Shown: piece after piece, positions 13,401 through 61,381 of the stretch | Position numbering within the stretch: position 1 is the first letter of the stretch | How the letters are laid out: the number at the start of each line of letters is the position of its first letter | Assembly: GCA_942159475.1 (NCBI GenBank) | Contig: OW804102.1 | Coordinates: 21,332,684 to 21,396,683, forward strand | Reading direction: 5' to 3' | Length of the DNA: 64,000 nt | Origin: Sthenelais limicola | Taxonomy: Eukaryota > Annelida > Polychaeta > Phyllodocida > Sigalionidae | Position numbers and translations under genes: made by a program | The notes under the pieces: generated by a model | Database searches by the model: none | Seen by the model: only the letters and a program-made list of their open reading frames with translations | Told to the model about the DNA's origin: nothing

Positions 13401-16400
13401 TTAAGTTTCTGTCCAACACAGGAGGAGTTTTTAATAGACATGCCTACTGGAGGCGGGAGCCACTGCAGGGGCACAGGTGTGCTGCTCCTGTCAGTGCTAC
13501 TGGAGCAGGTAGTGCTTGCTAAGGGGAAATAAACACACTTACACTGTAGCCAGGGGCGGTAAACACTAGTAAACCATCGTCTCTCAATAAGGCACTGCCT
13601 CAAATAAAGCTGTCACAGGGTGTGGGGGAACCGTTTAGGACATGAAGGCTTTACTATTGCACGCTGACGCAGTAGAATGACTGGTAGTGATTTGGTGGTG
13701 CATCTACCCCACTTTCCCCAAAAACAAAACTTTTTTATTTCTCATATTAAGCATTTCCTTACAATATTTTGATAATAGGAAATAGGCAGCATTTTCTGGA
13801 CATCTGCAGTTCTTCCAATAGAGCATTTACATAAAATAAAATAAGTGAATTTCATATTTCATCAATAGGCCTACATCAGTTTTACTACATTTCGCTTATA
13901 GGCTGTATTTGAAGTACGGATGTGTTTTTGATCAAAATTCAACATTAAATAAAAATAATGTCATGAAGGTAATAAGTGTATATTATTAACAACTCCTTCT
14001 CTAGGGATATAAATATAAAAAGAGTTTGGTCTTAAGCATCTATAGTCTCTAGATTGAAAAGTCTAGGGCATATAACCACCTGAGCCAGGGACTAAAGAGA
14101 TTAATAAACTTCATTCAGGTTCATTAATTCTTTACCAATTTCTACACTGCTTTTATTTTCTCTGTCCAGAACAAGCAAGTAAACAGAACGAGTTCTAGAA
14201 AGTTACAAGAGCCCAGCTAAACGCCACGTTACAAATGTATTTGTTTCTGTACCTTATACATTTAAAACAATCCCTCCACCTGTATATTCATATGTATGTC
14301 TTTATGTTTTACAGGTTAACACCGCAGCAGTCAACAGTATTGACAGCAAGGCCCATAAGAAAGCCTTTGATAAGGTGGAGGGACCACGACTCGTCGGTCT
14401 CTTGAAAAAGGACTCAGAAGGTTGGCACTTAATTTAGACTAATTACATCATTTACATACTCATATTGCTAAGTGGAAATAGTTTCACACTAATGGCTTCA
14501 TAATCTTAGCGGCATAACCTTACTCACTGGATTTTCCAATTAACGTAGCTTAGTTAAAATATATGATAAATAAGAGTGGCGAGTAATATTTTAATATTTT
14601 AATATCAGAGTCTGTTAAGATCAGATCACTGATAAGTAGTCCATCACATCTCAGGAAAGTCAGTATGAAGTAAAATCTTCTTCTGTGTTGATTTATGATA
14701 TAATATTATAATAGAATTGTTCATTGTTCATGTAATATTACAATAGAATTGATTGTATTTAATGTATTGGCCTGAAAATGAAATAATAATAAAAAAAAAT
14801 TGTTTGGTGCGTGGGAGAAAAAGGTCTTCTCTGTCCAGTTGTCGGTGTCAGAATGACCAACAGCGGAGCTACGTCATAGTCCTTGCATTGTGGGTAATAA
14901 AGTTGATAAATTTACCGTTAGATGCCTTCACATAGATTATAAGCAATGTTTCTATTACCACCAATGATTGATCATGGTACCTCTTTACTTGCAGAATATT
15001 CAGAGTTCGCTCGAGCCGCTGAGGCCCTCCATCCTTATGTCTCCTGCCACATTGTTTCTGACGCCAAGGTGAGGTTATAGCAAGGGTCTACTTCATGCTC
15101 TAGTATCATGTACATATATTATATCTCTATAGTATTTCATATATTGGCCTAGTTTTCTATCTATGCTTTATCTGCATATTATGGGGCTAAGACTTCTTTA
15201 GGAATACATTGGAACATCTGGTATATGATATATGGAATGTTCCAATGTACATTCCTGAAAAGATCTGACCCATTACATACAGCCTTGTCTGTATATATCT
15301 GTCTCTATATAGCTGTATGTTGTGTATCGGTATTTTAAATATTAGAAAGAGAACAACAACTTCCTTTAAACTACCACCTCTGCAGGAAGTGACCATTTTG
15401 GAAAGGACAGGCTTGCTGCCCGAGGTGGGGATTCAAACCCACACCTGCATTTATATGTCTAGTGCTCTTGTTATTTGATTTAGCAAGATTCCCCTGTCCT
15501 ACTGCCTAAATCGTGCTTGTCAAGGGTCACTAAACTACAAGGGCTACCAACTGTTCATGTAGATCTATACATTAAATTGAATAATACTTTATTTTGCCAA
15601 AGTTGGGCATAATGTAGGTGTGTGACAAGAATAGTAAAACAGACCTTTGAAAAGGATCCAGTTCTTCTTGCCGTTACCAAGATCTAGATTGTGTGTACTG
15701 CCTTCTCAGTCACAACATGAGTTTATGTCACAGAATCCACATGAACTATCATCAGTGGCAATGATTACTTAAAGCTACAAGTCGTAATGTTCTGGGTGCT
15801 TGCTTTTCCTGGGTGAAAACCTACCTTATTGATATAATCTCTGGATGGTAGCTTAATGGCAGGTACTAGTTGTAGAAGCCTGTTTCCCCATGTATTCTGA
15901 CTGATCAGGCTACTCCTACCAGGCACGGTGATACAAAAGTGCATACAATGTGCATTTAAGTGTTTTATGAGGAATCTATGAAGCTTTTGCGCAAATTGAT
16001 GGCATCTTGTTCAAATCTGATGCATTTTGGTGGTAGTCAGTCCTTGATGCGCTGCGACATCGCCAGTTCCATGCTCTGAGCATATTGTGTCTATACATGT
16101 ATTTTTGAAAGCATGTATATTACATGGCAGCATAGCATGTGAATATGTAAATGTCTGTGTAATATCCTAAACTGTAAATAGTTTTAAAGATAAAGCACAA
16201 GTAGAAGTATCAAATTTGAACTTTTTGGAAATTCCAGGTTTAACCGCCTCTGTTTTGTTCCCTTCAGCGGTTGAGAAACTGAATCTATCAACAATTCGTC
16301 AAAATACTGTGGCTGGCATTTCATGAGATGTGCCAGGAGTTTCAAGAAAGCAATTATGTGATCTATATATTCTTTTTCCATTTTTGTAAAAGGTTGTGTA

Positions 16401-19400
16401 TAAAGATGGTCATTTTTGGGTTAGGCTGTCAAAATTGCAGTGAACAACATTTTGGCAGTGAGTTCATGTAATGTTCAAACTGAAAAAATCTATTTAAAAG
16501 TACTTTTAAATTTATCTAAACCGTTGGGACAAATCTTAAAAATGGAAACAGTTAGTTCATTTTGCTACCCTTCATCATTGCAAATTGATTTGCTCATGCA
16601 ATTAACAGTAGCTATGGATAGACAGCCGGTTTGGCTATGATCACTCTATGTTGGGTAAAGTCCTAATCCAAATTGCCAAAGGCCCCACACTCAACATTTC
16701 ATATACATATCAAGGTCAAATCAGTCCAATCTATCGTCATCATTCTCAGACGCAGCAAACAAGAAGAGAGAATTAACCAAATTTCAAACATGCTAAAGGT
16801 GTCAAACATTTAATTTCACTATCGCTCTGGATCGGCTCACTGGCATGTGTAGCATGTTATGGGTTCAAACCCAGGAGCGGGTACAGTTTCACCTCCTCCC
16901 CCACCCCCAGGTACTAGTAAACAACCACCATGAGGTGAACTAGTCCTGGTAAAAATTGTAAAAAAACAAAACAAAGAAAACTAACGTAACGTTCACGTGT
17001 TGTCTGGATCTCCCAGCATGGACTACTAAACCTGAGACTTAATGACCAAACAGAGACACACAAGACCAACTTAAAATCATCAACAAGTTCATTATAATAG
17101 TTACATTATACTGAGACGATAAGTCATAAACTTTATGTAACTTTCATCGGTAACTCAAGAGTGTGTATCTTTCAGTGCTTGAAATAATAAATTGCATTTT
17201 TGCAATAAGCATAGAATATGACAAATTTTCTTTATATTGTGATATGAGAACCATACTTAGAGCAACTGTCAGATTTTTCCTAAAAAAGTCGACTCCGTCA
17301 AGTAAAAACGGTATTGATACCAGGGTATTGGAGAGAACTTATAAATACCAACGAGTATGAGAAAGTGTAAAATCAGTAGCCCTACTTAATTAGAACTAGA
17401 ACTCAACTATTAAGTCCTAGAGTATATATAGAAGTTAACGACAGTACAGGAACGTTTTAACCGAAGGATTTAGGTGATAGCCCTCAGAGTTGCGTGTAAA
17501 ACTGACTCTCTGAAATTCTGTTTCTGATAACAGTATCAAGAAACTATTTGGGAATAAGGATATATTGGACCCCTGTCATTATTGTATCATGAAGGTATGA
17601 ATGAGAAATAGTGTTGTGTGTTTGAAACCCACATCGTTGCCAAATTGGTGATTGAAAATTTCTGAATGCAAACCGGTGAAAAATGTAGAAAATTAAGAAT
17701 TTTCAATGAGGATTAAAAAAAAACAAATCCTAAGATTATGTGTGATGCTGGTACTTTCAGGTATTAATGGAGGAGGGATTCCCGGAGCCCATCGGGGTAC
17801 GTGACGTCATCATCACTTGTTTCCCTACCTCAATAATCCTTTCACTCACCAGTCCGTAATGGAGGAACTATTAATATCATCTCCGTTTAGTCTAACAGCT
17901 TCTACTAGTCAACATAGCAGTTCCAAGGAGCTACAATATTCTACTGTCATTTCCCATCTTGTATCGTATAATCGTATAACACCCAGATTCTCCCTATTTA
18001 AGTGCATCAAACGCTCGGACAATTCTAAAATGAAAACATTATTGAAAAATACAATAAAAACATTTGACAAAACAAAAAATGCATCCTCAACGTTTTAGAC
18101 TGTTTTGATAGATCTGATGATGAATAATTACTGAATGAATGTGTGTGTGTTGAGTGTGTGTGCAACCCGAGTAGTGTAAGAAATAAGGTAGTATACTACA
18201 CCGTACAATGCGCTTACCAATCCCAACAACTGGTGGGAACTGTAGGTGAGGGTGATAACTAGCAGCACATTGCACCGCTTACTGCACAAAACGTGGTGCG
18301 AACAGTGAGCACGTTGTGGCACGATTACAGCAGGGCACTTTACTGTTATAGCTTCTTCTACACACACGGCGTTTATACCACCACTAGATGTTTTTTTATG
18401 ATTGTTTAATGATAGTTCTCCAGCGGCCTTTTGTAAGGTTGCACCAGGGAGGTGTATTAATAGGAGTGGGCGCATCCCTTTTACAATTTGCCTCTCTAAT
18501 GAATAACCCTTAGATTCCTTCCTTAGAATTGTATTCGGAAATGTTGTACACCAGCAGCTTATTCCGTGTAGATTAAAGTTGCCTTCCAAGCTATTTCGAC
18601 CCATAGATTCTTTTTCAAATTCACTTACACCCCATGTTCAATTAACCGAATATCTCAACATCGGGGCGGCACTCGGAGGAGAAACAAAGGAAAGTCAGCC
18701 GAGTGTCTGTCATTGAGATTGGATAAACCTATCTATATCTGGCAATCTTTCCATAGGTTATAGTCGACCACAACCTACTGTGAGAGAATCGGCTTTGTTG
18801 ATTAGCAAAAACGTATATATAAACTTCCTTGAAATACAACAAAGGAAATTCATCTAAAATCCGGAGTAGCGGTCTTCAATGCATAGAGAGGCAAATATTG
18901 AAAATATCATTGACAATAGCCTGACGCCACTCCCTCTAATTCACATCCCTGGTTTAATGTACATCCACAAGGACAGATTGAGTGCAATAGGAGGGACAGA
19001 GGACTTTACAGAAGACACACAACACTGTTTGCATGCACTTGTTCCTGCACTTTGTTAACTCTTTATATTGTAGATGGTAGTGTCCACGCGTGGGTGTTGT
19101 AGTAAATATTTGTACCCTTTATCAACCTTTCAACCTTTCTTTTCCTATTCTTATAACATAATCTTAAACTCTGGTTTAAAGTAAAAGTCAGATATAACCA
19201 CTGTGATACTCTCTTTTTGTCCATCCGATAATCGTTAACAACTTGTAATAAATGTTTGCATAATAATCTGTGGTAAATATGGGTAAATGAAGATATCGTT
19301 TGATAGCGCTGGCGAAAGGTTATGAGTTATGTTATTTACCTGTAATTTCCTTTCTTAGGCTTTGAAACATCTGAAGGGAAAGAAGCCAGGCACGATCCTG

Positions 19401-22400
19401 TATTATGAACCATACGCAGAGAATCCTATCCCTCTGACAGGCAAAGTAAGTTAGGATCGTTTTTAATTTCATGTAGGAACTAACGTGGGTTCAGTCCAAA
19501 GCATTCACGATAGTATATCTTCTCCCAACGATGCATTGAGTTTCCTTCTGTTTAAATTAATCAAATTTACTATATCGTACTCATGAACATTTCTGTCAGC
19601 AATACCATAGATCTGTCATGGTACTATACAGAGAGATATTTTTAAGTTCAAGGTATGACATCTGACGAATACCACCTTGTGCCATGCCATGGAATATCAC
19701 TTAGTTTGTATCCAAATTGATTGTATAGAATTTCAGCATCGTAAACGTCCAAATAAAGATTCATTCATTCACTAATTTGGGTTCTCAGAACGTGCAGTTG
19801 TTATAAAAAGTGTCTTTTATTTCATTTCAGGGGACAGCGAACGAGATCCTCAATTATTTCAATGAACACCAGCTCTCATTTCTGCGAAGACTGTATCCAT
19901 ACGATATATATGCTACAATGGTATTTGTATTTAAATATTTTTATTTAGCCAAGCGTCATGTGATACACAATATTCTCAGTCAAAGCTAATGGAAAAAAAG
20001 AAAAAAAGAAAGAAATTACCAGTACAGTTATACAAATCGAGCAGGTCAACAAAAGTGTATTACTGAGATTTACAATCAGAAATAAAGAAAAAAGAAAAAC
20101 AAATTATCTTAAAAACCTACAAAGAAGTTAAGATCAAGTGCAGAATGAGGAGCATCGTCATACTACATCAGAAATAGACATACGGGCGTCAACATACTCA
20201 TTATCAAGACAATCCATGAAAAGAAAGCCCCTTGTCTCTCTGCTCTTGATGTACAGGTCTACTTACAGGTCTATTTGAATTTATTTGAATTTACCTCTCT
20301 GAACATTTAACTAACTCTGTTGCAAACTCTTGCATAAACATAGCAGCAAAATATCATTAGTCTTGGGGCTAACAACGTAAGGCAGAGATTGAGAAGATTA
20401 GTAACCTCCATTTCAGGCGTCTTGGTGCAGTGTTTGTGTATGTTCCCTCGGCATTGCCTTAGGATTATACACAAAACAGTGCACCAGCAGCCCCTAAATG
20501 TTGGTAATAAGTCCTTTAATCAAACAACAAGCAAATATTTCCGATTGTCACAATAGTTGAGAACGCTGCTTAACTATGAGAGATCTTCTGCCCATCTTAT
20601 CTCCATCATCTCTCTTTTTTTTACATTCTGTTTTGTTCAAATGTATCTATTCATTTTAGATTTATATAAAGCAATAAGGTGAAAAAGGGTAGACATTAAC
20701 GTTAAGTTAAAGGGTTAACATTATTAGAGGATGGGAAGAAATGAACAAGGATGTGATAGGATGAGATAGGTGATGGCTCCAACTTATATAAATGATAAAG
20801 AGTAGTGAGTATGAGATCGGTCTCCACAATATTTCCCAAATAAATAATAGTATTGCCAAAGTACCGTGTTAGATCACCATCTAAGCAAGATTGCTTACAA
20901 TATATACAATATCTGGTTTACTTGCAGCATATATACGAGTCTTCCAAGCGGCTAGTTCTAGCCTTTCTGCTGCCACGTACACCTGAGGGTCTCACGCTGT
21001 TCAAGTCACTTAGACGTCTGACCAGCACCAACACCGCTGATCAGCAAAAGACCAACGTCCTCTATGTCAACATGGAGGACTTCCCAATGGTAAGCGTCCG
21101 TTAGTTTGTTCAAACTCTGTTATTCAGAGAGAAATACACATTCGGATAAACTGTTTTCGTTTGTGCCCTGATTTGGCTGTACATGAATAGGTAGAGTTCG
21201 ATTATTTATTAGAATTTTCATACAATAGGTTCCCAAGATGAAATCGTCATTAGCGGTTATATATTTTTAACAATAGTAAATTTATATAATACATCAGACG
21301 GTCAATATGATGTGATGAAGGATAAGAGCTAATGATAAATGAGGTGCGATGGGTTCCTGTCTAGTATATGCAACACTACTTTTAGCTGTAGTGAGTAGGA
21401 AAAATGGTTGCAACAACAAAAGAAAAGCTGCAAGTGGTTTGGGTCAGCACGCTATTTTAATTCAAGCTTCTACAGATAGATTCTATTTTTATGTTTGTAT
21501 TTGCAGAATATCGGAGCTCTGGAACGTGAGTTTAACGTGAATCTGGCCGAGCCAGTCATGGGACTAGTTAACATCACCACCGTAAGTTATTTATAAACGT
21601 GTGTATTTTCCTATGTTGAACTTCAATAGAAACAGTAATGCTGTGCATAGATTAATTTCTTTTTAAAGATATTAAAACCATAAATTATTCAGATATAATG
21701 TAGTTTAATCATTGGATTCAGGTCATGAAGTTTATCACAGTAAGTTACCTTTTGATATACAGTATTGAAGTCTTGAATGTAATAAAACGTTTCTTAGTCC
21801 TAAATCATGTTAGGCCTAACACAATGTATATTTTATTTTCAGGGTGAGGCACAGTGGTTCTCTAAACCAGATCTTCACCTCCTTCCGAAAGAAGATCAGA
21901 CGAAGGAGGTCGCTGATTGGTTTGCTCGCGTTGCCAGAGACAACATAAGAGTTGATGGACAAGCTCCTATTGAAACTGAAACTGGTGAGTATTCAATTTA
22001 AGATGATTTGCTAGTCATTTGGGCATTTATTGGTAATATTAATAAGCTTTATGTTTATCTGTACCGAAGTATCTTTGACTTGAGGCTGCTGAAAATAAAC
22101 GTTACCTCAAGCAGAAATTTGTTTGAAAATGTGAATCCCAAAATTTTACATATCATTCTGACATCTCGCTGCAAATCTGTATAAGGAGATTTGTAAGGCT
22201 CTAGGATAGTTTGCTCAATATCAATATACCTTTCTCTGTATCAAAACGGATCACATAAATATAATGTGTAGTATCATGGTATGTAATATATCATTGACAG
22301 AAAGTGGGAACTACCTTCATCAATGTTTGTGGCCCACTGAGAATAAGCCCTGCCATGAAGAATAAAACTGATTTAACTATAACATTTGCCGTGCAATGTT

Positions 22401-25400
22401 TCAGATGACAAAAAGGAAGAAGCGGCCAAGCCCGCCACGGAAGATGGAGACTTCAGACATAAACCTGATAAAACCCCAAAAGGAAAGTCAAAGGATGAGA
22501 AGGAAGAGGAGAAGGATGACACCTCTCCTACAGAGAATAATGGAAAGGATGATGGAGATGACGAGAAGGACGCGGGTGAAGAGAAAGCTAAGGCAGTTTC
22601 AGGTCATGGCCACAAGAAGGCTGACAGATCTGACTACCTTAAACAGTTTGATGACGGGGGGAAATTTTTCACAGGAATCTATACTCTCATTACTGACCCC
22701 ATCAAGGCTATGCTTGGAGTGACCTCAGACCAGGGAAATGGTGATGAGGAGTCAGATGATGTCACAGAAGCAGCTTCATCCACAAAGAAGGCCGCACCAA
22801 CCAAGAAAGCAAAACAGTCCCATGCATCTAAGAAAAATGCTGCACCCAAAGCTAAAAAGCCTAAAGTAAAGCACACAGCTGATCTGCAAGCGACTTATAA
22901 ACCCTCAAGCAAGGCTGATAGTCCTTATCTGAGGCAATTTGCTGCAACCGAATCTGATAAAATATTTAGTAACCTATTTAAGTTTGTTATATCCCCAGTT
23001 GTGTGGGCAATGACCCCATCTGAACATGTAGAACCTGAACCTGAATCTGTACATGGTGAGCAAGTTATGGTTCAAACATTGCGTAAGATGGACACGCCTT
23101 ACTTGCGCCAGTTTGCAGCTTCAGATGAAGATAAATTATTTACTAGATTATTTACGCTTATTGGCAGAATAGTATCCTACCCTTGTACCCTTCTTGTTGG
23201 TTCCTCTGATGAAGCCCCAGTAATAACAACTAAGCCCAAGGAAGTAAGGTGTGAAATGTTTAAAGCAACAGAAGAAGATAAGATATTTAAGAATTTATTT
23301 CGTTTAATTTATAAGCCTATATCTGGCATTGTGGCTGTTATTGCTAATCAGCCTCTATTAGAGGAATCCAATGAGGAAGGATCAGAGGAACACATCCCAC
23401 CAGCTCCTGTAATGGAAGCTGCAGTGGAAGTGGAGGAGCCAAAACAGAAAGTTAAGAAGCAGGTAAAGCAACAGAAGGTTATTAAGCAGCAAGTGAAGAA
23501 GCAGGCCAAAGTTGTAAAGAAAGAAAAGCCTCAGAAGGTGAAACAAGTTAAAAAGCAACAGCAACAGCAACAGCAACAGCAAGTCAAGAAGGTAGAAGCA
23601 CCTGCTAATCTTATGGATGCAATGAAACAGAAAAAGAGTGGACAGAAAAAACAATTACCTAAGATTGTACCAGCCTCTGAATTTAATGGTCAAGATTCTG
23701 ATAAAATATTCAAAAGTGTTTATAACTTAGTAAAAGGTTTAGTAGTCGGAGATAGTAATGTAGATGAACCCAAGGCACCTGAGCCTGCTTTTAGAAAACC
23801 TGTAACTAAAGCCCCCATTAAGGAAAAGGTTATCCCCAAAAGATCTCCAGTAAAGGTAGAGGAGGAGAAGCAAGATAAGGAAGAGGCTAAACCAGCTGAG
23901 GAAGCTGATGATGATAAAGATGAAGAAAAGGACATTAAAGATGATGATGATGATGAAGATGAAAAGAAGGACGCTGATAAGGATGAAGGACATAAACCTC
24001 ATGGAAAGCTTGACTCAGAGTATCTCAAACAGTTTAAAGCTGAACCAGAGGATAAAGTTTTGTCCCACATGTTCAAATCAACTATTGGAAGGTTGGTAGG
24101 AGCTGGGCCTGAGAAAAAAGAAGAAAAAGAGGTTCAACCCAAGGTAGAACATGAAGAACACAAAGTTAATGACGATGATGATGATGATAAAAAGGAAGAT
24201 GATAAGGATGATGATAAGGATGATGATAAGGATGAGGAGGAGGATGATGATAAGGATGAAGGACATAAACCACATGGTAAGCTTGACTCGGAGTACCTCA
24301 AACAGTTTAAAGCTGAACCAGAGGATAAGGTTTTGTCCCACATGTTCAAATCAACTATTGGGAGGCTGGTAGGAGCTGGACCTGAAAAGAAAGAGGTAAA
24401 GGAGGCTAAACACAAGGTAGAAGAAAAAGAAGAGGAAGCTGAACAGGAGGATGATAAGAAAGATGAGCCTGAGGAGAAGGAAGAAGCAAAGCCAATTGAA
24501 AGCACATCTCATGGTAAACATTCATCAGAATACTTGAAAAAGTTTGCCGCAGAGCCTGAAGACAAACTTCTTTCCCATATGTTCAAATCTACAATTGGTC
24601 AACTTGTAGGCAGTGGCAGCGACTCAGGGGAAAAGGAGGACGATGCAAATGGTGATGATCAAGAGGAGGATAATGAAGAGGAGGAAGACCAACCAGAAGC
24701 ATTCGAGCATGCCAAGGACTCTGACTACATGCAGCAATTCAAGGCAGAGCCCCATGACAAGATCTTCTCTCACATATTCAAGTCCACCATTGGTCAGCTT
24801 ATTCAGGGTGCAGCTGCAGAAAGCAGTGATAGCCCAAAGGCTGCTGATGCTACTAAACAAAAGCCCTCCAAGGCAAAGAAAGTACCCAAGAAACAGCATG
24901 CTAAGTCTGAAGCCAAGCAAAAAGTTCCAGTGAGGAAATACCGCAAGCCAGCCAAGGTACCTGATTTCAAACATGCTGAAGAAGCTCCTAGACACCATAA
25001 AAAGATTGATGCTGATATGTGGACTGGAAAGAATGAAGACAAATTTTTTAAATCTATATTCAATTTTTTCTTTGGCACCATTAAAAATGTAGTAACAGGA
25101 AATTTTGGGGGCTCCAAACCTAAGGTAGAGGAACCTGAAGAGGATGGTGACTGGAGAGATGCTTTAAATCAGGTTGTTCAAACCTTCACTGGAGGTGAAG
25201 GAGAAGGAAACACAGAAGATAAGGTGGATGCACTAAACACTGTTTTCGGTGAGGAGACTTACGGTTCAGAAGAGCAAGAAGAAGAAGCTCAGCAGGATGA
25301 GGAGGAAGAGGAAGGATCCGATCATGATTTCCTAGCAGATGCTTTCAAGCAGGAGGGAGGTGAAAAAGAAGACATTGAGGGAGGAGAAGAAGAGCACGAA

Positions 25401-26312
25401 TCTGAGGATCAACAGGATAACTTAACTGTTGACGAGGAGGAAGAAACTGATGAGAAACATGATGAGGATAATGGTGAAGAGGAGCAAGGAAAAAATGAGG
25501 AGGAGCAGGTAGGAGAGGATTCAGATGAATTCATTGATGCATTAAGCAATGGTGAAGAGGAAGATGAAGTAGAAGATGCCTCTGATGGAAAGGAAGAGGA
25601 TGGTGATATCCCACCCAAACAGGAGGAGGAAGACAATGATATTGACATATCCGAAGATGAAGGTGTTGATGGAATGAGCCAGGCAGAATTCATAGCAGAT
25701 GCTTTCCAAGAACCTGAAGAGGAAGAAAAGGCAGATCAGGAGGAGGAGCAGGAAGAGGAAAAGAAGCAGGATGAGGTAGAGGCTGGTGAGGAAGAGGAAG
25801 AGGTGAAGCAGGATGAAGACGATGATTCTCTATCTCAGTCTGATTTTCTTACTGGGGCTTTCTCAGAGGCAGAGGAAGAAGAGGATAAGTCAGAGGCTGC
25901 AGTAACAGAGGACGAAGAGGCTGACGAGGACAATGAGGTGGAGCAAAAGAAACCAGAAGAATCTGTTGAAGAAAAAGAAGATGAGAAGGAGGAGGAAGAA
26001 GATGAAGATGACGATGACAATACAGAAGCAGACAATAAACTTGATGCCATGTCAACTGAAGAATTCATTGACATGGCTTTCAAGGATGATGATGAAGATG
26101 ATGACATGTTTAATGATGTTGAAGACTTTGGAAATGACCCAGAGTACTTGGAGAAGCATGTTACTTACAGGCCATTCAGTGAGGACCCAAGGAAACAGTT
26201 CCAATACACAGAAGTAGATGATGATGATGACGATAATGAAAATGATGCAGATTTCCTTTATGAACACGGAGAAGCATATGACCGTCACAGACATGGACGT
26301 CAACAGTTGTAG
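1379..26312 (+). CDS. CASQ: Giant calsequestrin-like protein, 3' portion of gene (11 exons)
   Basis: Calsequestrins are lumenal sarco/endoplasmic reticulum proteins built of three thioredoxin-like folds plus an Asp-rich tail; they store Ca2+ at high capacity. Exons 1379-1463, 2409-2503, 14315-14420, 14995-15068, 17761-17796, 19359-19445, 19831-19920, 20928-21089, 21507-21581, 21843-21984 and 22405-26312 join in one open frame with matching phases. Family-like stretches include EALHPYVSCHIVSDAK (calsequestrins have a similar EEFHPYIPF-type segment), VLYVNMEDFP (domain III strand) and EPVMGLVNIT. No CxxC redox site is visible, as expected for calsequestrin rather than a disulfide isomerase. The start codon, signal peptide and first ~60-70 residues are outside the window. 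The stop is TAG at 26310-26312. The 1,302-residue last exon replaces the usual short acidic tail and is the striking deviation. There is no KDEL-type C-terminus (it ends HGRQQL); calsequestrins also lack one. The family is seen with good confidence; the function of the tail is unknown. Confidence 0.85.
2409..2503 (+). CDS. Calsequestrin-like gene, second visible exon (end of domain I)
   Basis: Acceptor CCTTTAG before 2409, donor AAG|GTCAGT after 2503. It completes an Asp codon from the previous exon and ends in phase 0. It encodes PGAIHVYSNRQYVYQG and then ALVSFVLK, matching the strand-turn-strand (SIYVF...EVIEYDG) and following helix at the end of thioredoxin domain I in calsequestrin. Confidence 0.78.
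3210..3727. mobile_element. ~520-bp full-length TIR element
   Basis: Starts GGGTCAGGCCATCACAAAAT followed by GTACAAT and ends ATTGTACATTTTCTGATGAC. The interior includes CACTGACATACACCTCCCAT and GATGGTGGACATGCAAATCC, segments also present (either strand) near 2608-2680, 11648-11715, 55240-55330 and 63200-63250. It has no coding capacity. This is the longest intact copy of the window's most common transposon. Confidence 0.75.
4045..4345. mobile_element. Diverged TIR element copy
   Basis: The left end reads GGGTCCGATCGTCAGGAAAT and is followed by TTGGCAGC and AATCAGGCTGAAAAATGATG, matching the copy at 56810. The right end is degraded (AAATTGCACATTTTT). No coding role. Confidence 0.5.
7784..7913. 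repeat. GGGCCCTAACGTCTGA-type repeat cluster
   Basis: Spaced variants of one ~15-bp unit recur: GGGCCCTTGCGTCTGA, GGGTCCTAACGTCCGA, GACCCCTAGCGTCTGA, GGGCCCTAGCGTCGGG and GGGCCCTAACATCTGG. Spacers between them differ. The second cluster is at 47593-47774. Confidence 0.75.
10661..10903. mobile_element. ~240-bp TIR element copy
   Basis: The left end is GGGTCAGGTCGTCAGAAAAT then GTACAATTC; the right end is GATTGTACACTGTCTCACGC then CGTGACCCATATG, its inverted counterpart. The interior includes CAAATATACTCAGATATACC, shared with a partial copy near 1220-1240 and with the 50280-50515 copy. Confidence 0.75.
11395..11720. mobile_element. Partial copy of the long TIR element
   Basis: Contains TTTGCATGTCTACTACAGTG, ATGATCTATAAAAAAACAAG, and TTTACACTGACATACAACTC with CATACGAATCGAGATTCAAG, in the same order as 3425-3700. 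Both terminal repeats are missing or altered. Confidence 0.65.
14315..14420 (+). CDS. Calsequestrin-like gene, third visible exon (start of domain II)
   Basis: Acceptor TTTTACAG before 14315; donor GAAG|GTTGGC after 14420. Enters in phase 0 and leaves with one extra base. It encodes AFDKVEGPRLVGLLKKDSE, which aligns with the domain II opening of calsequestrin (an AFENIEDEIKLIGYFK-like segment followed by a Lys/Ser-rich turn). No catalytic cysteines are present. Confidence 0.85.
14421..14994 (+). other. Intron with no distinctive content
   Basis: A 574-bp AT-rich intron between the two domain II exons. I see no repeat, open frame or structure in it worth annotating. Confidence 0.7.
14995..15068 (+). 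CDS. Calsequestrin-like gene, fourth visible exon (domain II)
   Basis: Acceptor CTTGCAG before 14995 and donor AAG|GTGAGG after 15068. It completes a Glu codon and ends in phase 0. The product EYSEFARAAEALHPYVSCHI is one of the clearest family matches: calsequestrins carry an equivalent HYKAFEDAAEEFHPYIPFF-like helix and strand in domain II. Confidence 0.88.
15069..17760 (+). other. Intron with possible tRNA-derived SINE fragments
   Basis: This 2.7-kb intron holds two short sequences resembling RNA polymerase III B boxes: GGTTTGAATCC on the minus strand around 15431-15441, and GGTTCAAACCC on the plus strand around 16862-16872. Each has one mismatch to the tRNA B-box consensus. Neither folds into an obvious tRNA, so SINE remnants are the better guess. 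No exon or other repeat was recognised. Confidence 0.35.
17761..17796 (+). CDS. Candidate 36-nt cassette micro-exon of the calsequestrin-like gene
   Basis: The acceptor is GTACTTTCAG before 17761 and the donor GGG|GTACGT after 17796. It encodes 12 residues, VLMEEGFPEPIG, phase 0 at both ends. Comparison with calsequestrin suggests the protein would read well without it (VSDAK followed directly by ALKHLKG), so it may be an alternatively spliced cassette or a false call. The splice signals are good, but the short length limits confidence. Confidence 0.5.
17797..19358 (+). other. Intron with no distinctive content
   Basis: A 1.56-kb intron. A 158-codon frame runs on the minus strand (18128-18604) but looks like chance: I recognise no family, and it contains a GT-repeat translation at its end. 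A short GTGTGTGT tract lies near 18140-18162. Nothing else stands out. Confidence 0.55.
19359..19445 (+). CDS. Calsequestrin-like gene, domain II exon
   Basis: Acceptor TTTCTTAG before 19359; donor AAA|GTAAGT after 19445. Phase 0 at both ends. It encodes LKGKKPGTILYYEPYAENP, equivalent to the Lys-rich strand and FYEAFMEEP-like turn of calsequestrin domain II. The EPYAENP turn takes the place of the EEP motif that closes the family's second thioredoxin fold. Confidence 0.85.
19831..19920 (+). CDS. Calsequestrin-like gene, end of domain II exon
   Basis: Acceptor TTCATTTCAG before 19831; donor ATG|GTATTT after 19920. Phase 0 at both ends. It encodes EILNYFNEHQLSFLRRLYP, matching the family's [20 protein letters not shown]-like helix that ends domain II and links to domain III. 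This is one of the most convincing alignments in the gene. Confidence 0.88.
19921..20927 (+). other. Intron with no distinctive content
   Basis: A 1.0-kb intron with an A-rich stretch near 19990-20100 and otherwise ordinary sequence. I see no repeat or coding potential here. Confidence 0.6.
20928..21089 (+). CDS. Calsequestrin-like gene, start of domain III exon
   Basis: Acceptor ACTTGCAG before 20928; donor ATG|GTAAGC after 21089. It encodes 54 residues, phase 0 at both ends. RLVLAFLLPRTPEGLTLFK corresponds to the calsequestrin domain III strand and helix ([21 protein letters not shown]-like), and NVLYVNMEDFPM corresponds to the LSIIWIDPDDFPLL-like strand. The usual acidic residues of domain III are largely replaced by neutral or basic ones here. 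Confidence 0.9.
21507..21581 (+). CDS. Calsequestrin-like gene, domain III exon
   Basis: Acceptor TTTGCAG before 21507; donor ACC|GTAAGT after 21581. Phase 0 at both ends. The 25 residues include LEREFNVNLAEPVMGLVNIT, matching calsequestrin's [20 protein letters not shown]-like segment. The proline-containing EPVMG corresponds to the conserved cis-proline loop of the thioredoxin fold. Confidence 0.9.
21843..21984 (+). CDS. Calsequestrin-like gene, end of domain III exon
   Basis: Acceptor TATTTTCAG before 21843; donor ACTG|GTGAGT after 21984. It encodes 47 residues and leaves one base for the next exon. TKEVADWFARVARDNIRV corresponds to the last helix of calsequestrin domain III (AEELEDWLEDVLEGEINT-like). 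In vertebrate proteins the Asp-rich tail begins just after this point, so the exon boundary separates folded body from tail. Confidence 0.85.
22405..26312 (+). CDS. Terminal exon: 1,302-residue modular acidic/KEKE-like tail
   Basis: Acceptor GTTTCAG before 22405; first codon is Asp shared with the previous exon; frame open to TAG at 26310-26312. From N to C: an acidic/Lys-rich lead (22405-22620); ten hydrophobic modules between 22623 and 25100, separated by charged spacers; Lys/Gln-rich basic blocks near 22774-22890, 23439-23663 and 24816-25004; and a final very acidic third (25101-26309) with five DFLxxAF-like motifs. No transmembrane segment is clear, although modules 2-5 and 10 are hydrophobic enough to bind membranes or other helices. 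The remaining exons are 36-162 nt, so this exon is more than twenty times longer. The tail resembles known lumenal Ca2+ partners only in general character: triadin/junctin have KEKE stretches and HRC has acidic repeats. I recognise no named domain. Confidence 0.85.
23439..23663 (+). repeat. Basic Lys/Gln-rich block with nine-Gln run
   Basis: This in-frame block is dominated by K, Q and V (for example KVKKQVKQQKVIKQQ) with a run of nine Gln at 23556-23582 encoded by alternating CAA and CAG. Alternating Lys/Glu or Lys/Gln segments of this sort resemble KEKE motifs, which in triadin and junctin bind the acidic tail of calsequestrin. Here the basic block and the acidic tail are in one polypeptide. 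Confidence 0.7.
23976..24395 (+). repeat. Duplicated 49-codon unit with identical protein sequence
   Basis: Units 23976-24122 and 24249-24395 encode the same 49 residues (from DKDEGHKPHGK to GPEKKE, including modules 6 and 7). By eye the two 147-nt copies differ at 11 positions, every one synonymous. The spacer between them is a GAT/AAG-rich acidic stretch that looks microsatellite-expanded. Confidence 0.88.
25320..26090 (+). repeat. Five DFLxxAF-like motifs in the acidic C-terminal third
   Basis: Short motifs interrupt the Glu/Asp-rich sequence at 25320-25352 (DHDFLADAFKQ), 25518-25553 (DSDEFIDALSNG), 25674-25715 (MSQAEFIADAFQEP), 25830-25871 (LSQSDFLTGAFSEA) and 26049-26090 (MSTEEFIDMAFKDD). 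The shared pattern is [ST]-x-[DE]-[FI]-[LI]-x-x-A-[FL], and four of five are followed by acidic residues. They differ from the upstream YLKQF modules and look like short linear helices in a disordered acidic chain. Confidence 0.75.
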
Positions 26313-36626: not shown

Positions 36627-39600
36627 CTGTAATTTGTCAAGGTGAAATGTGGCTGTTAATTTGGATTATCGTATGCACAAACAAACAGTTATTATCATAT
36701 TTGCTTATATCGCTGACTGATTTAGAGACACTTCTAAAACATAGGAGAATACCAGTAAATATTTAGAGATATCACTAGATTTGTAGATTATGGTGTGCAC
36801 AGACAGATATATGGGATGTTGGGGCATTTATTCAATAGTTATATTACTGATTATATAGAGATATGTCTGATCTAAATATTTTCTGATAACCATAAAATAT
36901 ATGAAGTGATAGCGCTAATTGCGCTAAACATTTAATGTTCAGTGATATCAGTACATTCTACAAAGATATTTCTAAATGGTATAATGGTTTTAACTTGAGT
37001 TTTGTCGATGATATAATGGTAGTTTGCTTCAAGGTTCACAATAGGGTAGTGGTGATTCCAACGTTTCGACTGTCATGTATTCATCAGGGAATTAAATTCA
37101 ATTCTCTCAAAGATATTTCTAAATGATTTAATGATAACGCTAAATAATTGACGGAGATCACTAAATGGTTAGCTAGTCTCCACTTATTTAGAAATATCTT
37201 TGAGAGAATTAAATATAACCTTTATTTCTGGTGGCAATATATCCTTAATCCTTTTAACAATATTTGTAAGAATTATTCAGAAATAAACCTAATGCCTACC
37301 TGTAATGGGTGAACCAATTGTGAAAGCAATACCTTGGAACATAGCCATGAGTCCAAAAGCATTGGTGAGTCTATCTAGTCCTAGCAGTTCCACCAGTATT
37401 ATTGGTCTTAAAGACGTCCATGCACCTGCAGATAACAATAATGAATCATTTTATTGTTAGTATTAATTCTTTGTATTCATTTGTGGGACAAAGTCAATTT
37501 TCATATTTAATACACATTTCCTTATATTTCAGTGACTGTCCACATTGGCACAATGTCTGAGTAGTATTATTGGCACAATGTATGATCATTGGCAAAAAGT
37601 CATAGTTTATTCTTCAATAGCTTAAGTCCGTTTCTGCACAGTTCAGGTCAGTCCAACCCGAAATAACAATATTCAACACCAACATCGCAAGTATACAAAT
37701 GATTATGTCACTACAAATGTCGGGTGTGCTGTTTACTATGAATTGAAGTATTTGATTTGATTTGGAAAGTATGAAGTACACAGTGATACAACTACTATTT
37801 TCCAAGGAATCTGTTTACGGGGTAGAACTAGGAGATATATAACGTATAGCAGTATATTTAATGTATATACATGTGTACATTAATAATAATCTAGAATACA
37901 TACCCATACATAGACCAAAGATGGCTGCCTCAAATGCTAATCCAGCGTAAACCTTTGTAAAAGGTATGGCAAATGTGATCGCTGAACCAAGCAGTAGAGA
38001 GGCGGCATTCACCCAAATAGGATCCACTCCGGGTCGATCTGTAGAGAGATGATTGCAATGGTTGCATTATTCCTCATGGCCTTATAAATACGGGTTCCAT
38101 ACATGGATCAGGGGGTAAATAAATGTACAATTGTTTTTTTCCAACCTGTTTTATTCACATATAATCGTACTTAAAATGTTTAAAATTGTAAGAGCCCAGA
38201 TGGCAGGGGAAAAAATAAAGGCTGTTGCAAAAACAAAAAAGGCTAACGATTATACGTATTTGGCATATCTAGATATATTTGACCAGTATTGTTTTGATAC
38301 TCATGCTCTGTTTATGTTGAACTGTTTGAGAACTTTATTTCTTATTTTTCTAAGTGAATAAGGGAAGGTGAATTGTACATTTTTACACAACTACACCCAA
38401 ATATATCATATCAACATGCAGTCCGAAATATATATGGAAATACACTCCTGTGAACGCACTGTAATCTTGCGACATAAAAGATAGCGTAAACATTCCTTTA
38501 CTATTAGATTAGGATATACAGCCCCATGAATACAGGTATTCTAAAAAAAATGAATTCCAACGTTACATACCTGATACATATCCGGCCACTAAGCGGCCGA
38601 CGATATTACTAACGCCTATGATGGAGACCAGTAGTGCCGCCTGTGGTTTGGCAATGCCACTAATGACTGCATAGTCAGGGAATATGGAGAGTACGGAGCT
38701 ATGGGCTGAAATAGACGAAACAAGTGTTACCAGTGGACAATATGATTGAAGAAATAAAGGGAAATACAATGTTACAAGTGGAAAATATAATTGATGAAAT
38801 GATAAAGGATTAATAATGGCTGACATTGAGTAGCTGCTGTTGGATTGTTTGGTGCATAAGCCTGTCACGTCTAAAGGAAGAAAAGGCCACATACTAATAA
38901 ACTTATGGTACTCATTCTATGTGGGCAAGGGAAATGTAGAACTTGTTTTCCGGCAAGGGAAATGTAGAACTTGTTTTCCGGCAAGGGAAATGTAGAACTT
39001 GTTTTCCGGCAGAGTGATACCCCGCCTCCAAACTCGTTCTACATTTCCCGCCCGCTCCTAACTCGGTTCCATAAGTGGTTAATATGATTTAAGACATCTT
39101 GAGTTGAAAAGTCAAGATTAATTATCCTTTAATACATGCATACAGAATAATTGTGGAATTGCCCCCTTTCAAAGGTATTATATAATAGAACAAACTACCA
39201 CTTGATGTTTTAGCTCAGCGAAGGATATGTGGCTTACGAGAACTACTTGAAAGAATCCACTGTAATAAGGAGTTAGGATGGGAAATCACCTCGGACCCGT
39301 TGCATAAAAGGTCGTTTTATAGTATGTTCCTTCCTTAGCTGCTTTTCCTTGCTAAGCAGTTGGTAAGGAATTTTAGGGAAGGAATTTGTCATAGAGACAG
39401 AGCTATTTCTCAGTCCTACAGAAGGAAATCTCCGACCTAAGCAACTGGTCCCAGACATGGTTGCAATTAAAAAATTATTTCTAACTTTCATTCAATTAAC
39501 TTCATTCAACTTTAAATTGACGATTTATATGCTCTCTGTTGGTTGTAAAAGTCTGTTGAATAGATGAAATGAACGTGTGAACTTGTGAAATCCTGGATAT

Positions 39601-42600
39601 AATCTTATAATATCATTGAAAAATTAAATCACTGTTATAATATTAGATATATAGTCTTAATCTTGGGAAAAGTGATAAGTGTCTTCTAGTATACACTCGG
39701 AGATCTCATTGTCTAGGATTTTCATTTTCGCATGTGTAAATGTTGAGAGGTAAATATTTCATTACACCATTTATTTGTGTATGGATGAGGACGCAAAGTT
39801 CGCCACACATGGGCAAGTTTCTTCGACGAAGCGTGATGAATACCAAGTAACCTTAAGTCTGATTAGCTCCATGACATAAACAACAACCCAATAAATAATG
39901 GTAAATCATCTGCCTTTTCTCTCTTTATCCTCTTCTCCCTTTCCCTATCCCGCTCCCATCCCCCTCCCCTCTCCTTCTGCTTCTTTCATTCTCTCTCTTC
40001 CTCTCTCTTCCTCTCTCTTCCTCTCCCCGTCTCATTTCCCCCAATGTTATTCCCGCCTTTTACTCTCTCCCTCCCCTGTTCTCTCTCTATCCTCCTCCCC
40101 CTCTCCCTCTCCGATCCTCCACTCTCTCTCACTCGCTCTCCCTCCCCTATTCTTTTCTCTCCTCCCCCCCTCTGCTCTCTCTCCCTCCCCCTCTGCTCTC
40201 TCCCTCTCCCATCTTCTATCTCCCTCCCTCCTTCTCTCTCTCCCTTCCCCACCTCCCTCTAATCTCCCTCATGGGACGGCAAAAACATGACGTCATAACG
40301 TTTTCATTGACGTGACGGTCATGTGATGGGTCATGTGCTCTTCAATTTTGACATTTGTCCATATAGTCCAGTAGAAATAGGGTTCAACCTAGAACAAATT
40401 GCAATAGAAGGTTTTTCAATGGTTTTGGGTACTTTGAGGCCTCCTTATTAACATACTAAAAGTCTACAAAAATCAAGATGGCGGAACATTCCAAAATCGA
40501 AGGTCAAAGGTCAAGGTCACCAAATCATTTTTTTAAAACCTTTTGAGCCATAAGTTTTGATTCATTGAAGATAGAATTTTCATTTTTTGCACACATATAA
40601 CCTGTAATGGACCCTTCATTCTAAAACAGTCATTTGACCTCTGACCCCAAGGTCAAGGTCATTTAAGGTCATCAAAAGATGAAAAATTGGGCTTTTTCAG
40701 GGAATTGGACTCATGAAAGTTTCCACTTTTGACAGGATATGACTCAAACTCATTCACAACATAATGTATATGAAAGCAAGTGAAATTATGAGCCCTGCAG
40801 TCAATTTTAAGTGCCCTGCCTCAAGTATTGACCTAACAACAGCCTAACGAATGTGGTAACAATAAAACAACAATAGTTGGGATTTTGACCTTATTAGGCA
40901 TTGAGCTCCAGATGAGCACCACACTATTTTGTATGTTTTGATCCATATCTCTGGATTTATTATGAATACTATTTCCATTTTTGGCACAAATAAGACCTAT
41001 GATAGGAGCTTCATTTTAAAATAGTCATTCAACCTCTGACCCAAAGGTCAAGGTCATCCAAGGTCACCAAATTATGAAAAATGAGGCTTTTTTAAGGAGT
41101 ATATCTTATGAAAGTTCTGTAGTCAATACAGTTGTTCTTGTATGATTGGTATAGTATGAAGCTGTTTGCGATTTATAGGTACATGGGGTATTGCCACCAG
41201 TGTGTATTTTGAGAAATTCAAGATGGCTGCCAAGATGGCTGCCATAACCAACTGATATTCAAAACTTGACTTTTGCTTATTCAAATCTTTGATGTTGTAC
41301 CAATTTTTTATGGTTTGAGGGGTCAAGGAATCCAATGAAGCTATTTCCAATAGTCTGCGACCAGTTGCCATAGAGATAAGGTTACCATGGTAACCAAACA
41401 TTTATCAGACATCTTTTTATTAATAGAAAAATAGAGGGAATAATGTGGGTCATGGAGTACCAGAGAGGGTATAATGGGGGCCATTCAGCAAAATAGAGGG
41501 AATAATGTGGGTCATGGAGTACCAAAGAGGGTGTAATGGGGGTCATTCAGCAACATAGAGGGTATAATGGGGGCTTATTCAGCAACATAGAGGGTATAAT
41601 GGGGGTCATGGAGTACCAGAGAGGGTGTAATGGGGGGCCATTCAGCAAAAAAGAGGGAATGATGTAGGTCATGGAGTACCAAAGAGGGTATAATGGGGGT
41701 CATTCAGCAACATAGGGGTATAATGGGGGTCATGCAGCAACATGGAGGGTATAATGGGGGTCATGGAGTACCAGAGAGGGTGTAATGGGGGGCCATTCAG
41801 CAAAATAGAGGGAATGATGTAGGTCATGGAGTACCAAAGAGGGTGTAATGGGGGTCATTCAGCAACATAGAGGGTATAATGGGGGTCATGCAGCAACATG
41901 GAGGGTATAATGGGGGTCATGGAGTACCAGAGAGGGTGTAATGGGGGGCCATTCAGCAAAATAGAGGGAAGAATGTGGGTCATGGAGTACCAAAGAGGGT
42001 GTAATGGGGGTCATTCAGCAACATAGAGGGTATAATGGGGGTCATTCAGCAACATAGAGGGTATAATGGGGGTCATTCAGCAACATAGAGGGAATAATGG
42101 GGTCATTCAGCAACATAGAGGGTATAATGGGGGTCATTCAGCAACATAGAGGATATAATGGGGGTCATTCAGCAACATAGAGGGTATAATAAGGGTCATG
42201 GAGTGACACAGAGGCTATAATGGGGGTCATTCAGCAACATAGAAGGAATAATGTGGGTTATTGAGTAACAAAGAGGGTATAATGGGGGGCCATTCAGCAA
42301 AATTGAGAGAATAATGTGGGTCATGGACTAACATAGAGTATAATGGGGGCTTATTCAGCAAAATAGAGGGAATAATGTAGGTCATTGAATAGCAGAGAGG
42401 GTGTAATGGGGGTCATTCAGCAACAAAGACGGTATAATGGGGGTCATTCAGCAACATAGACGGTATAATGGGGGTCATTCAGCAACGCAACATAGAGGGA
42501 ATAATGGGGGTCATTCAGCAACATAGAGGGTATAATGTGGGTCATGGAGTACCAGAGAGGGTGTAATGGGGGGGCATTCAGCAAAATAGAGGGAATGATG

Positions 42601-45600
42601 TAGGTCATGGGGTACCAAAGAGGCTGTAATGGGGGTCATTCAGCAACATAGAGGGTATAATGGGGGTCATTCAGCAACATAGAGGGTATAATGGGGTCAT
42701 TCAGCAACATAGAGGGAATAATGGGGGTCATTCAGCAACATAGAGGGTACAATGGGGGTCATTCAGCAACGCAACATAGAGGGTATAATGGGGGTAATGC
42801 AGCAACATAGAGGGTATAATGTAGGTCATGGAGTACCAGAGAGGCTGTAATGGGGGTCATTCAGCAACATAGAGGATATAATGGGGGCTTATTCAGCAAA
42901 ATAGAGGGAATAATGTGGGTCATGGAGTACCAAAGAGGGTGTAATGGGGGTCATTTAGCAACATAGAGGGTATAATGGGGGCTTATTCAGCAACATAGAG
43001 GGTATAATGGGGGTCATGGAGTACCAGAGAGGGTGTAATGGGGGTCATTCAGCAACATAGACGGTATAATGGGGGTCATTCAGCAACATAGACGGTATAA
43101 TGGGGGTCATTCAGCAACATAGAGCGTATAATGGGGGTCATTCAGCAACATAGAGGGTATAATGGGGGTCATTCAGCAACATAGACGGTATAATGGGGGT
43201 CATTCAGCAACATAGAGGGTATAATGGGGGCCATTCACCAACATAGAGGGTATATTGGGGGCTTATTCAGCAAAATAGAGGGAATAATTTGGGTCATGGA
43301 GTACCAGAGAGGGTATAATGGGGGCCATTCAGCAAAATAGAGGGAATAATGTGGGTCATGGAGTACCAAAGAGGGTGTAATGGGGGTCATTCAGCAACAT
43401 AGAGGGTATAATGGGGGTCATGCAGCAACATGGAGGGTATAATGGGGGTCATGGAGTACCAGAGAGGGTGTAATGGGGGGCCATTCAGCAAAATAGAGGG
43501 AATGATGTAGGTCATGGGGTACCAAAGAGGGTGTAATGGGGGTCATTCAGCAACATAGAGGGTATAATGGGGGTCATTCAGCAACATAGAGGGTATAATG
43601 GGGGTCATTCAGCAACATAGAGGGAATAATGGGGGTCATTCAGCAACATAGAGGGTACAATGGGGGTCATTCAGCAATGCAACATAGAGGGTATAATGGG
43701 GGTAATTCAGCAACATAGAGGGTATAATGTGGGTCATGGAGTACCAGAGAGGGTGTAATGGGGGTCATTCAGCAACATAGAGGGTATAATGGGGGCTTAT
43801 TCAGCAAAATAGAGGGAATAATTTGGGTCATGGAGTACCAGAGAGGGTATAATGGGGGCCATTCAGCAAAATAGAGGGAATAATGTGGGTCATGGAGTAC
43901 CAAAGAGGGTGTAATGGGGGTCATTCAGCAACATAGAGGGTATAATGGGGGTCATGCAGCAACATGGAGGGTATAATGGGGGTCATGGAGTACCAGAGAG
44001 GGTGTAATGGGGGGCCATTCAGCAAAATAGAGGGAATGATGTAGGTCATGGGGTACCAAAGAGGGTGTAATGGGGGTCATTCAGCAACATAGAGGGTATA
44101 ATGGGGGTCATTCAGCAACATAGAGGGTATAATGGGGGTCATTCAGCAACATAGAGGGAATAATGGGGGTCATTCAGCAACATAGAGGGTACAATGGGGG
44201 TCATTCAGCAATGCAACATAGAGGGTATAATGGGGGTAATTCAGCAACATAGAGGGTATAATGTGGGTCATGGAGTACCAGAGAGGGTGTAATGGGGGTC
44301 ATTCAGCAACATAGAGGGTATAATGGGGGCTTATTCAGCAAAATAGAGGGAATAATGTGGGTCATGGAGTACCAGAGAGGGTGGAATGGGGGGCCATTCA
44401 GCAAAATAGAGGGAATGATGTAGGTCATGGAGTACCAAAGAGGGTGTAATGGGGGTCATTCAGCAACATAGAGGGTATAATGGGGGTCATGCAGCAACAT
44501 GGAGGGTATAATGGGGGTCATGGAGTACCAGAGAGGGTGTAATGGGGGGCCATTCAGCAAAATAGAGGGAATAATGTGGGTCATGGAGTACCAAAGAGGG
44601 TGTAATGGGGGTCATTCAGCAACATAGAGGGTATAATGGGGGCTTATTCAGCAACATATAGGGAATAATGTGGGTCATGGAGTACCAGAGAGGGTCTAAT
44701 GGGGGTCATTCAGCAAAATAGAGGTAAAAATGTGGGTCATGGAGTACCAGAGAGGGTGTAATGGGGGTCATTTAACAAAATAGAGGTAATAATGTGGGTT
44801 TTGAGTACCAGAGAGGGTATAAGGGGGGTCATTCAGCAACATAGAGGGAATAATGTGGGTTATTGAGTAACAAAGAGGGTATAATGGGGGGCCATTCAGC
44901 AAAATTGAGAGAATAATGTGGGTCATGGACTAACATAGAGAGTATAATGGGGGCTTATTCAGCAAAATAGAGGGAATAATGTAGGTCATGGAATAGCAGA
45001 GAGGGTGTAATGGGGGTCATTCAGCAACATTGAGGGAATAATGTGGGTCATGGAGTGACACAGAGGATATAATGTGGTTCATGGAATAATATAGAGTGTG
45101 TAAGTGGTATAACTTAATGTTACACAGCTCAGGGGGGGGGGGCAGTCTAAATTCTGAGGCAAAAAGGCTTTACATAATATATGGATGGTCTTTAATGTCA
45201 ATCATGGAGTAACACAGCAGGTGTAATTAGGGGTCATTCATCAAGATAGAGGGTGTAATGTGGATCATGGAGTAATATAGAGTGGGTAATATGGGTTATT
45301 CATATATCTAATAGGCCGATGGAGATGTCAAATCATCGAGTCAAATCGCACTTAACCCCTTCAGGGTTTCGTGCGATTTGACCCGCCGTCAAGATTGATT
45401 TGACATCGAACAGAGGGCTATTAGATATTTTATTACATACTGATTTGTATATTTATCTGTTATAAATGTTCCGATTAGTGCTGTATGTCTTGCCAAATTA
45501 TTGCAACTTTGCTTGAAAACTTCCGAAACGTGCAAGGCAGCGCTACACAGCAGAGCGAAACGTCACCAAGTGCACAACATTGGCAAACCAATGAAATTGC

Positions 45601-61040: not shown

Positions 61041-61381
61041 GCGGGGGGAGTGGGGAGGGGAGGAGGGGGAGGAGAGGGGAGGAGGAGGAGGGGAGGGGGA
61101 GAGGAGGGGGAGGAGAGGGGAGGGGAGGGGAGGAGGGGGAGGAGGAGAGGGAGGAGGAGGAGGGAGACGGAGAGGGGAGCGGGAGAGGAGGAGGGGGAGG
61201 AGGAGAGGGAGGAGGAGAGGGAGGAGGAGAGGGAGGAGGAGGGGGACGGAGAGGGGAGCGGGAGAGGAGGGGAGGAGGGGGAGGAGGGGGAGGAGGGGGA
61301 GGAGGAGAGGGAGGAGGAGGAGGAGAGGGAGGAGGAGGAGGAGAGGGAGGAGGAGGAGGAGAGGGAGGAGGAGGAGGGAGC
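61041..61381 (+). repeat. ~340-bp pure purine (GGA/GAG) tract
   Basis: The plus strand is almost only G and A in GGAGGA, GAGGGGGA and GAGAGGGA units, with one internal repeat (GGGGGACGGAGAGGGGAGCG-like at about 61166 and 61242). It creates overlapping low-complexity Gly/Glu/Arg frames that are not genes. Confidence 0.88.

Follow-up and report, generated by a model that had tools for sequence, protein, structure and literature searches.

A gene on the forward strand of the 64,000-nucleotide stretch of Sthenelais limicola DNA analysed here (the window) joins a calsequestrin body in frame to a 1,302-residue modular tail encoded by a single terminal exon at 22405-26312, an architecture that an earlier note on this DNA had pointed out and that is confirmed at the level of the sequence. 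The full model consists of 11 exons and 1,713 amino acids, 411 in the body and 1,302 in the tail, and it combines a signal-like start, homology of the body to calsequestrin, a charge shifted away from that of the vertebrate family members, internal repeats and, in the repeat pair M6/M7, a codon pattern that points to constraint. We give about an even chance (roughly 0.5) to the reading that this calsequestrin-family protein resides in the ER/SR lumen with its division of labour turned round, the body serving as a docking head and the tail as buffer and scaffold.

The calsequestrin body

Nine exons of the body lie in the window between 1379 and 21984, all with AG/GT borders, matched phases and a frame that runs into the tail exon without an internal stop. 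These are exon 2 (1379-1463, phase 0 to 1, in calsequestrin domain I), exon 3 (2409-2503), exon 4 (14315-14420), exon 5 (14995-15068, where EYSEFARAAEALHPY aligns with HYKAFKEAAEEFHPY of CASQ1), exon 6 (19359-19445), exon 7 (19831-19920), exon 8 (20928-21089), exon 9 (21507-21581, where PVMGLVNIT aligns with PQIGVVNVT of CASQ1) and exon 10 (21843-21984, with a phase-1 donor). The reading within the window amounts to 1,607 residues, 305 of the body followed by the 1,302 of the tail. The earlier note had counted ten upstream body exons; nine are found inside the window, and a candidate for a further one lies upstream of it, at C9:21320528-21320845.

The assignment of the body to calsequestrin, made in the earlier note, is borne out by the searches. 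The body matches the Pfam calsequestrin family (PF01216) at 1.2e-36 and 127 bits, where the gathering cut-off is 27. Without exon 1, the PDB search at E up to 1 gives 11 matches, every one a calsequestrin; with exon 1 included, 11 of the 13 matches are calsequestrins and two, at E 0.05 and 0.93, are unrelated proteins. Protein disulfide isomerase or ERp44 as the closest family was considered and rejected, because the Thioredoxin_6 match is weaker (7.9e-11) and all 11 PDB matches below E 0.001 are calsequestrins. The alignment covers residues 49-363 of rabbit CASQ1 and has DGVxRV at its start; identity is 29.6% (88 of 297 aligned positions), and 93 of the 120 hydrophobic positions of CASQ1 are kept hydrophobic. 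By this homology, the body is predicted to fold into three thioredoxin-like domains that lack a redox CxxC. The absence of redox cysteine pairs, also claimed previously, holds by inspection, as the four cysteines at residues 16 (in the signal-like stretch), 54, 127 and 219 include none in a CxxC.

PMC7016017 counts calsequestrin among the components gained at the base of the animals, with unusual losses, and PMC7582152 names five sites as fully conserved in all the homologues used (R33, K180, D307, P329 and G332 of CASQ2). Three of the five (R33, P329 and G332) are kept here, and K180 is replaced by Ser and D307 by Asn, with the CASQ2 numbering mapped via CASQ1 at an offset of 19. The mapping of the R33 site is tentative.

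The charge of the body is unlike that of its vertebrate counterpart. Over 305 residues it carries a net charge of -2, compared to -62 for the 296 residues of rabbit CASQ1 in the same span, and the 89 acidic positions of CASQ1 that align to it are occupied by acidic residues in 24 cases and by basic ones in nine. Similarly, residues 33-411, which include exon 1, hold 44 acidic and 41 basic residues. Judged by sequence, the body is without most of the acidity that characterizes vertebrate calsequestrin. The charge was compared with vertebrate calsequestrin only, and bodies close to neutral may be usual in this lineage. Of the earlier note's interpretation, the calsequestrin body without a redox pair, the modular tail in frame with it, the KEKE-like stretches and the long acidic end are supported, and the loss of acidity from the body had been overlooked in it. 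Since this acidity is mostly lost, the protein appears to be more than a calsequestrin to which the motifs of its partners were added, and the buffer appears to have moved to the tail.

The modular tail

The tail contains 162 Asp and 216 Glu, 378 acidic residues altogether, and has a net charge of -183. The modules occupy its first two thirds, with KEKE-like stretches and two basic blocks between them, and an acidic terminus closes it.

Ten hydrophobic modules had been proposed, and ten candidate copies of a module of about 34 residues were recovered, of which seven are clear, two are marginal and one is weak. M6 (24006-24107), M7 (24279-24380, identical to M6 in protein sequence), M8 (24516-24617) and M9 (24711-24812) formed the starting profile. 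Scored with these four alone and compared to 200 shuffled tails, M2 (22911-23012) and M3 (23085-23186) reached 23.9 and 16.7 bits while out of the seed (best control 4.6 in both cases), and M4 (23232-23333) reached 16.9 bits out of a six-copy seed (M2, M3, M6-M9), where the best match in 500 shuffled tails was 9.3. In the six-copy round, M5 (23655-23756) and M10 (24993-25094) obtained 0.9 and -0.5 bits, with 12 and 25 control matches as good, and they exceeded the controls after re-seeding only, M5 once M4 was in the seed (5.6 bits versus a best control of 5.5) and M10 once both M4 and M5 were (8.7 versus 5.7). M1 (22620-22721) never rose above all controls, with 5.5, 3.2 and 2.4 bits over three rounds and 1, 5 and 7 control matches as good.

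Comparison of M6 with M7 and their flanks (44 codons) reveals 11 differing codons, all of them synonymous, and 0 amino-acid changes, while random changes would give 20-27% synonymous differences. This pattern speaks for translation and constraint in that pair only; the codon evidence is weaker for the other pairs among M6-M9, because these differ by 7-15 amino-acid-changing codons per 33, alongside 10-17 synonymous ones (10 synonymous and 15 changing for M8/M9). An AlphaFold2 prediction for M6, made from an alignment of the ten module copies, which are paralogous within one exon, places helices at residues 5-8 and 14-31 (mean pLDDT 72.5, pTM 0.31), so that the modelled module has two helices, a short one and one of 18 residues. 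Taken as raw values, the highest helix moment over 18 residues lies between 0.39 (M6, M7) and 0.73 (M4), depending on the module.

The basic Lys/Gln blocks described earlier are two in number, at 23427-23615 and 24888-24947. KEKE-like stretches, which had likewise been suggested, are present in the tail only, where the rule set in this analysis finds 13 overlapping ones compared to 0 in the body. A clear membrane span was not found in the tail and is judged unlikely from the sequence, because the highest 19-residue Kyte-Doolittle mean is 1.41, below the usual membrane-span threshold of 1.6. According to PMC8080761, triadin and junctin of vertebrates bind CASQ1 at its acidic end through their KEKE motifs.

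The long acidic terminus (25104-26309) is as the earlier note described it, with a net charge of -150 over the last ~400 residues, and five short hydrophobic motifs are embedded in it. They begin near 25317, 25518, 25677, 25833 and 26052, span 25317-26081 and are spaced by about 50-75 residues. The pattern [SDM].{1,2}[DE]F[IL].{1,2}[AGL][FLMS] was fitted after inspection, two earlier versions having given 1 and 3 matches, and in this form it is observed 5 times compared to a mean of 0.006 and a maximum of 1 in 1,000 local shuffles. By eye, these motifs look like the opening half of a long module.

The same data could be read otherwise, with the gene encoding an ordinary divergent invertebrate calsequestrin that polymerizes and buffers in the usual manner and whose tail is a fast-drifting, repeat-expanded acidic end without a role of its own. 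The level of identity to CASQ1 fits this, as it is close to that of C. elegans calsequestrin (30%, PMC8080761), and so do the module pairs other than M6/M7, which differ at 7-15 of 33 residues, and the ease with which acidic and K/E tracts expand. In addition, the sampled invertebrates have a single gene where one is present, with few acidic C-terminal residues, according to PMC7582152, whose sample is without mollusc, brachiopod or echinoderm. Mere drift is, however, difficult to reconcile with an M6/M7 protein sequence that is held while the codons change, with the recurrence of short motifs in the acidic end and with a body charge close to zero, and we therefore regard this explanation as possible, though rather unlikely.

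The N-terminus and the compartment

Exon 1 was not found in the 64-kb window, and it was not recognized in the 30 kb upstream by motif, by CASQ1 similarity or by a stricter signal scan, although its piece HDGVQRVTEV is present in the CASQ1 similarity scan at E 6.8. The candidate at C9:21320528-21320845 (window coordinates -12155 to -11838) precedes the window by about 12 kb. It begins with a hydrophobic stretch that resembles a signal peptide, and it joins exon 2 in phase 0. It was one of 8 candidates from a loose signal-and-donor scan over 100 kb of the same genome and was chosen by the DGVxRV motif, carrying HDGVQRV at the place of YDGVDRV in CASQ1. The choice is supported by the later alignment, which is ungapped through the exon 1/2 junction and in which the addition of exon 1 raises the PDB match from 125.6 to 131 bits. 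Instead of a signal peptide, the hydrophobic N-terminus could also be an uncleaved anchor; the protein would then be anchored like triadin, which has a type II topology.

A signal-like start followed by a long, acidic, repetitive tail would also suit a secreted protein built on the calsequestrin fold for a mineralizing or other Ca2+-rich extracellular matrix, and the sequence does lack a KDEL-like end. To our knowledge, vertebrate calsequestrins lack such an end as well. The earlier note held another Ca2+-rich compartment, such as a biomineralizing one, to be equally open. Positive evidence for it was not found in the literature covered, and we consider the secreted form improbable. By term search, PMC8217771, PMC4877012 and PMC7333891 mention calsequestrin once each, in a reference on Stains-all staining. 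The compartment that we infer instead is the lumen of the ER/SR.

The junction of body and tail

The terminal exon (exon 11, 22405-26312, 3,908 bp) encodes the 1,302-residue tail and ends with a TAG stop, in agreement with the single 3.9-kb exon of the earlier note in its coordinates. An AG precedes 22405, and the phase-1 acceptor corresponds to the phase-1 donor after 21984. The open frame around the exon extends over 22383-26312, and its run of 1,309 codons compares to a longest run of 165 in 300 base-shuffles of the exon.

It is very improbable that the tail exon is part of another gene or of a minor isoform, with retention of the last intron yielding a tailless body that ends in ETETGEYSI, since read-through past the last donor does reach a stop within five codons, but the splice phases match, the charged frame is open back to the acceptor and the whole window holds no alternative acidic exon on the forward strand. 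By the rule of 11 or more D/E per 20 codons, the last intron contains no acidic exon, and elsewhere on the forward strand of the 64 kb acidic windows occur only near 61.1 kb, within a GGAGGA repeat. Furthermore, no Met precedes 22710-22712 in the exon, a position 102 residues into the tail, so that a separate gene would leave a long open charged frame untranslated; by eye, the residues after this Met do not resemble a signal peptide. A separate gene and an alternative short acidic exon, either of which the earlier note had named as fatal to its proposal, consequently find no support in the sequence and are judged unlikely.

Searches for relatives and the surrounding DNA

Taken singly, the modules M1-M10 have no match in Pfam at E up to 5, and the module profile has none in the PDB at E up to 1. 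RE_NgoFVII_C was rejected as a relative of the tail: the whole tail reaches 24.9 bits (curated cut-off 23.8), no single stretch passes, the best one being tail residues 618-657 over M7, and we read the score as a sum of weak matches over the repeats. Protein database searches with model residues 1-560, with the body within a 780-residue query and with tail residues 60-820 returned no match. These results have no bearing on novelty, because the collections searched yielded no calsequestrin either and proteins of about 400 amino acids fell outside the length limits of the two body-containing queries. No relative was found among viral and prokaryote contigs when these were scanned with residues from window positions 24000-25119, five of the six patterns having fallen in charged or basic linkers.

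In the own genome, a query with M2-M4 (145 of the 1,302 tail residues) produced 6 matches. Five fall in the tail exon; the sixth, on a different contig, has an E of 2.6 and is not convincing. The body query returned 9 matches, which are the nine exons of the gene itself. A CASQ1 query gave one match, at E 6, and also missed the body exons described here, so the genome may still contain a classical second calsequestrin. A search for the family gave no signal at any place, its 14 controls among them. The exon matched by CASQ1 (L026:1510-1680, minus strand, contig C7) presumably belongs to an ERp44-type thioredoxin protein. The titles and abstract beginnings covered by the literature searches show no calsequestrin with such a tail.

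Elsewhere in the window, a Major Facilitator Superfamily transporter exon is present at 51209-52069 on the minus strand (MFS_1, 7.6e-15), and 38563-38916 on the same strand reads like another, with no Pfam match. Large 31-bp satellite-like tandem arrays occupy 41431-47590, within which the sequence at 47212-47590 appears to repeat the neighbouring block in reverse complement, and the GGAGGA repeat at 61054-61377 has acidic or Gly-rich frames on the forward strand. Upstream, near C9:21303860 (locus L003, -28.8 kb in window coordinates), an open frame resembles, by eye, a non-LTR retrotransposon endonuclease. In the window (1-64000), a tRNA gene was not found and none of the Rfam families reached its gathering score.

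Relation to known proteins and proposed function

The protein shares with calsequestrin (CASQ1, CASQ2; PF01216) a thioredoxin-fold body, as predicted by homology, DGVxRV near its start, the lack of CxxC, a signal-like start and an acidic end, and it differs by its near-neutral body, by the replaced K180 and D307 positions and by a modular tail of 1,302 residues in place of a few dozen Asp. Its likeness to triadin and junctin, drawn from their general description, consists of long charged KEKE-like stretches and a hydrophobic N-terminal stretch that is possibly uncleaved, whereas the calsequestrin fold and a tail without a clear membrane span separate it from both. Again by description, the protein resembles histidine-rich Ca-binding protein and further acidic proteins of the SR in being large, acidic, repetitive and presumably lumenal, but these are not known to have a thioredoxin-fold body. 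By sequence, the body is a calsequestrin, yet not of the acidic type of the known vertebrate members, and it is joined to a tail that is far longer and modular.

According to the reading we prefer, the thioredoxin-fold body, having lost most of its acidic residues, would probably act as a docking or assembly head, and the low-affinity Ca2+ store would have moved into a presumably largely disordered tail with its 378 acidic residues. The KEKE-like stretches and helical modules may connect one tail with another, with a partner or with the membrane on its lumenal side. Acidic segments take turns with KEKE-like ones along the chain and could pair between tails, and the helices might provide cross-links or contacts with the membrane surface. 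Because buffer, KEKE-like stretches and helical modules would all reside on one chain, a single polypeptide could cover the work that is divided among calsequestrin, triadin and junctin in vertebrates. More tentatively, and with considerable doubt, we suggest that the fold gave up Ca2+ binding to become an assembly head, and that a store with buffer, KEKE linkers and helical modules on one chain replaces the calsequestrin-triadin-junctin system in this lineage.

The body of calsequestrin and its acidic end are commonly regarded as a single polymer that binds Ca2+. If the reversed arrangement is true, this would be a natural protein in which the fold is kept and the charge is placed in a modular tail, separating assembly from buffering, and it would offer a test of whether lumenal Ca2+ stores need triadin-like partners. 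The gene suggests that the internal calcium store of this animal may have been reorganized along new lines.
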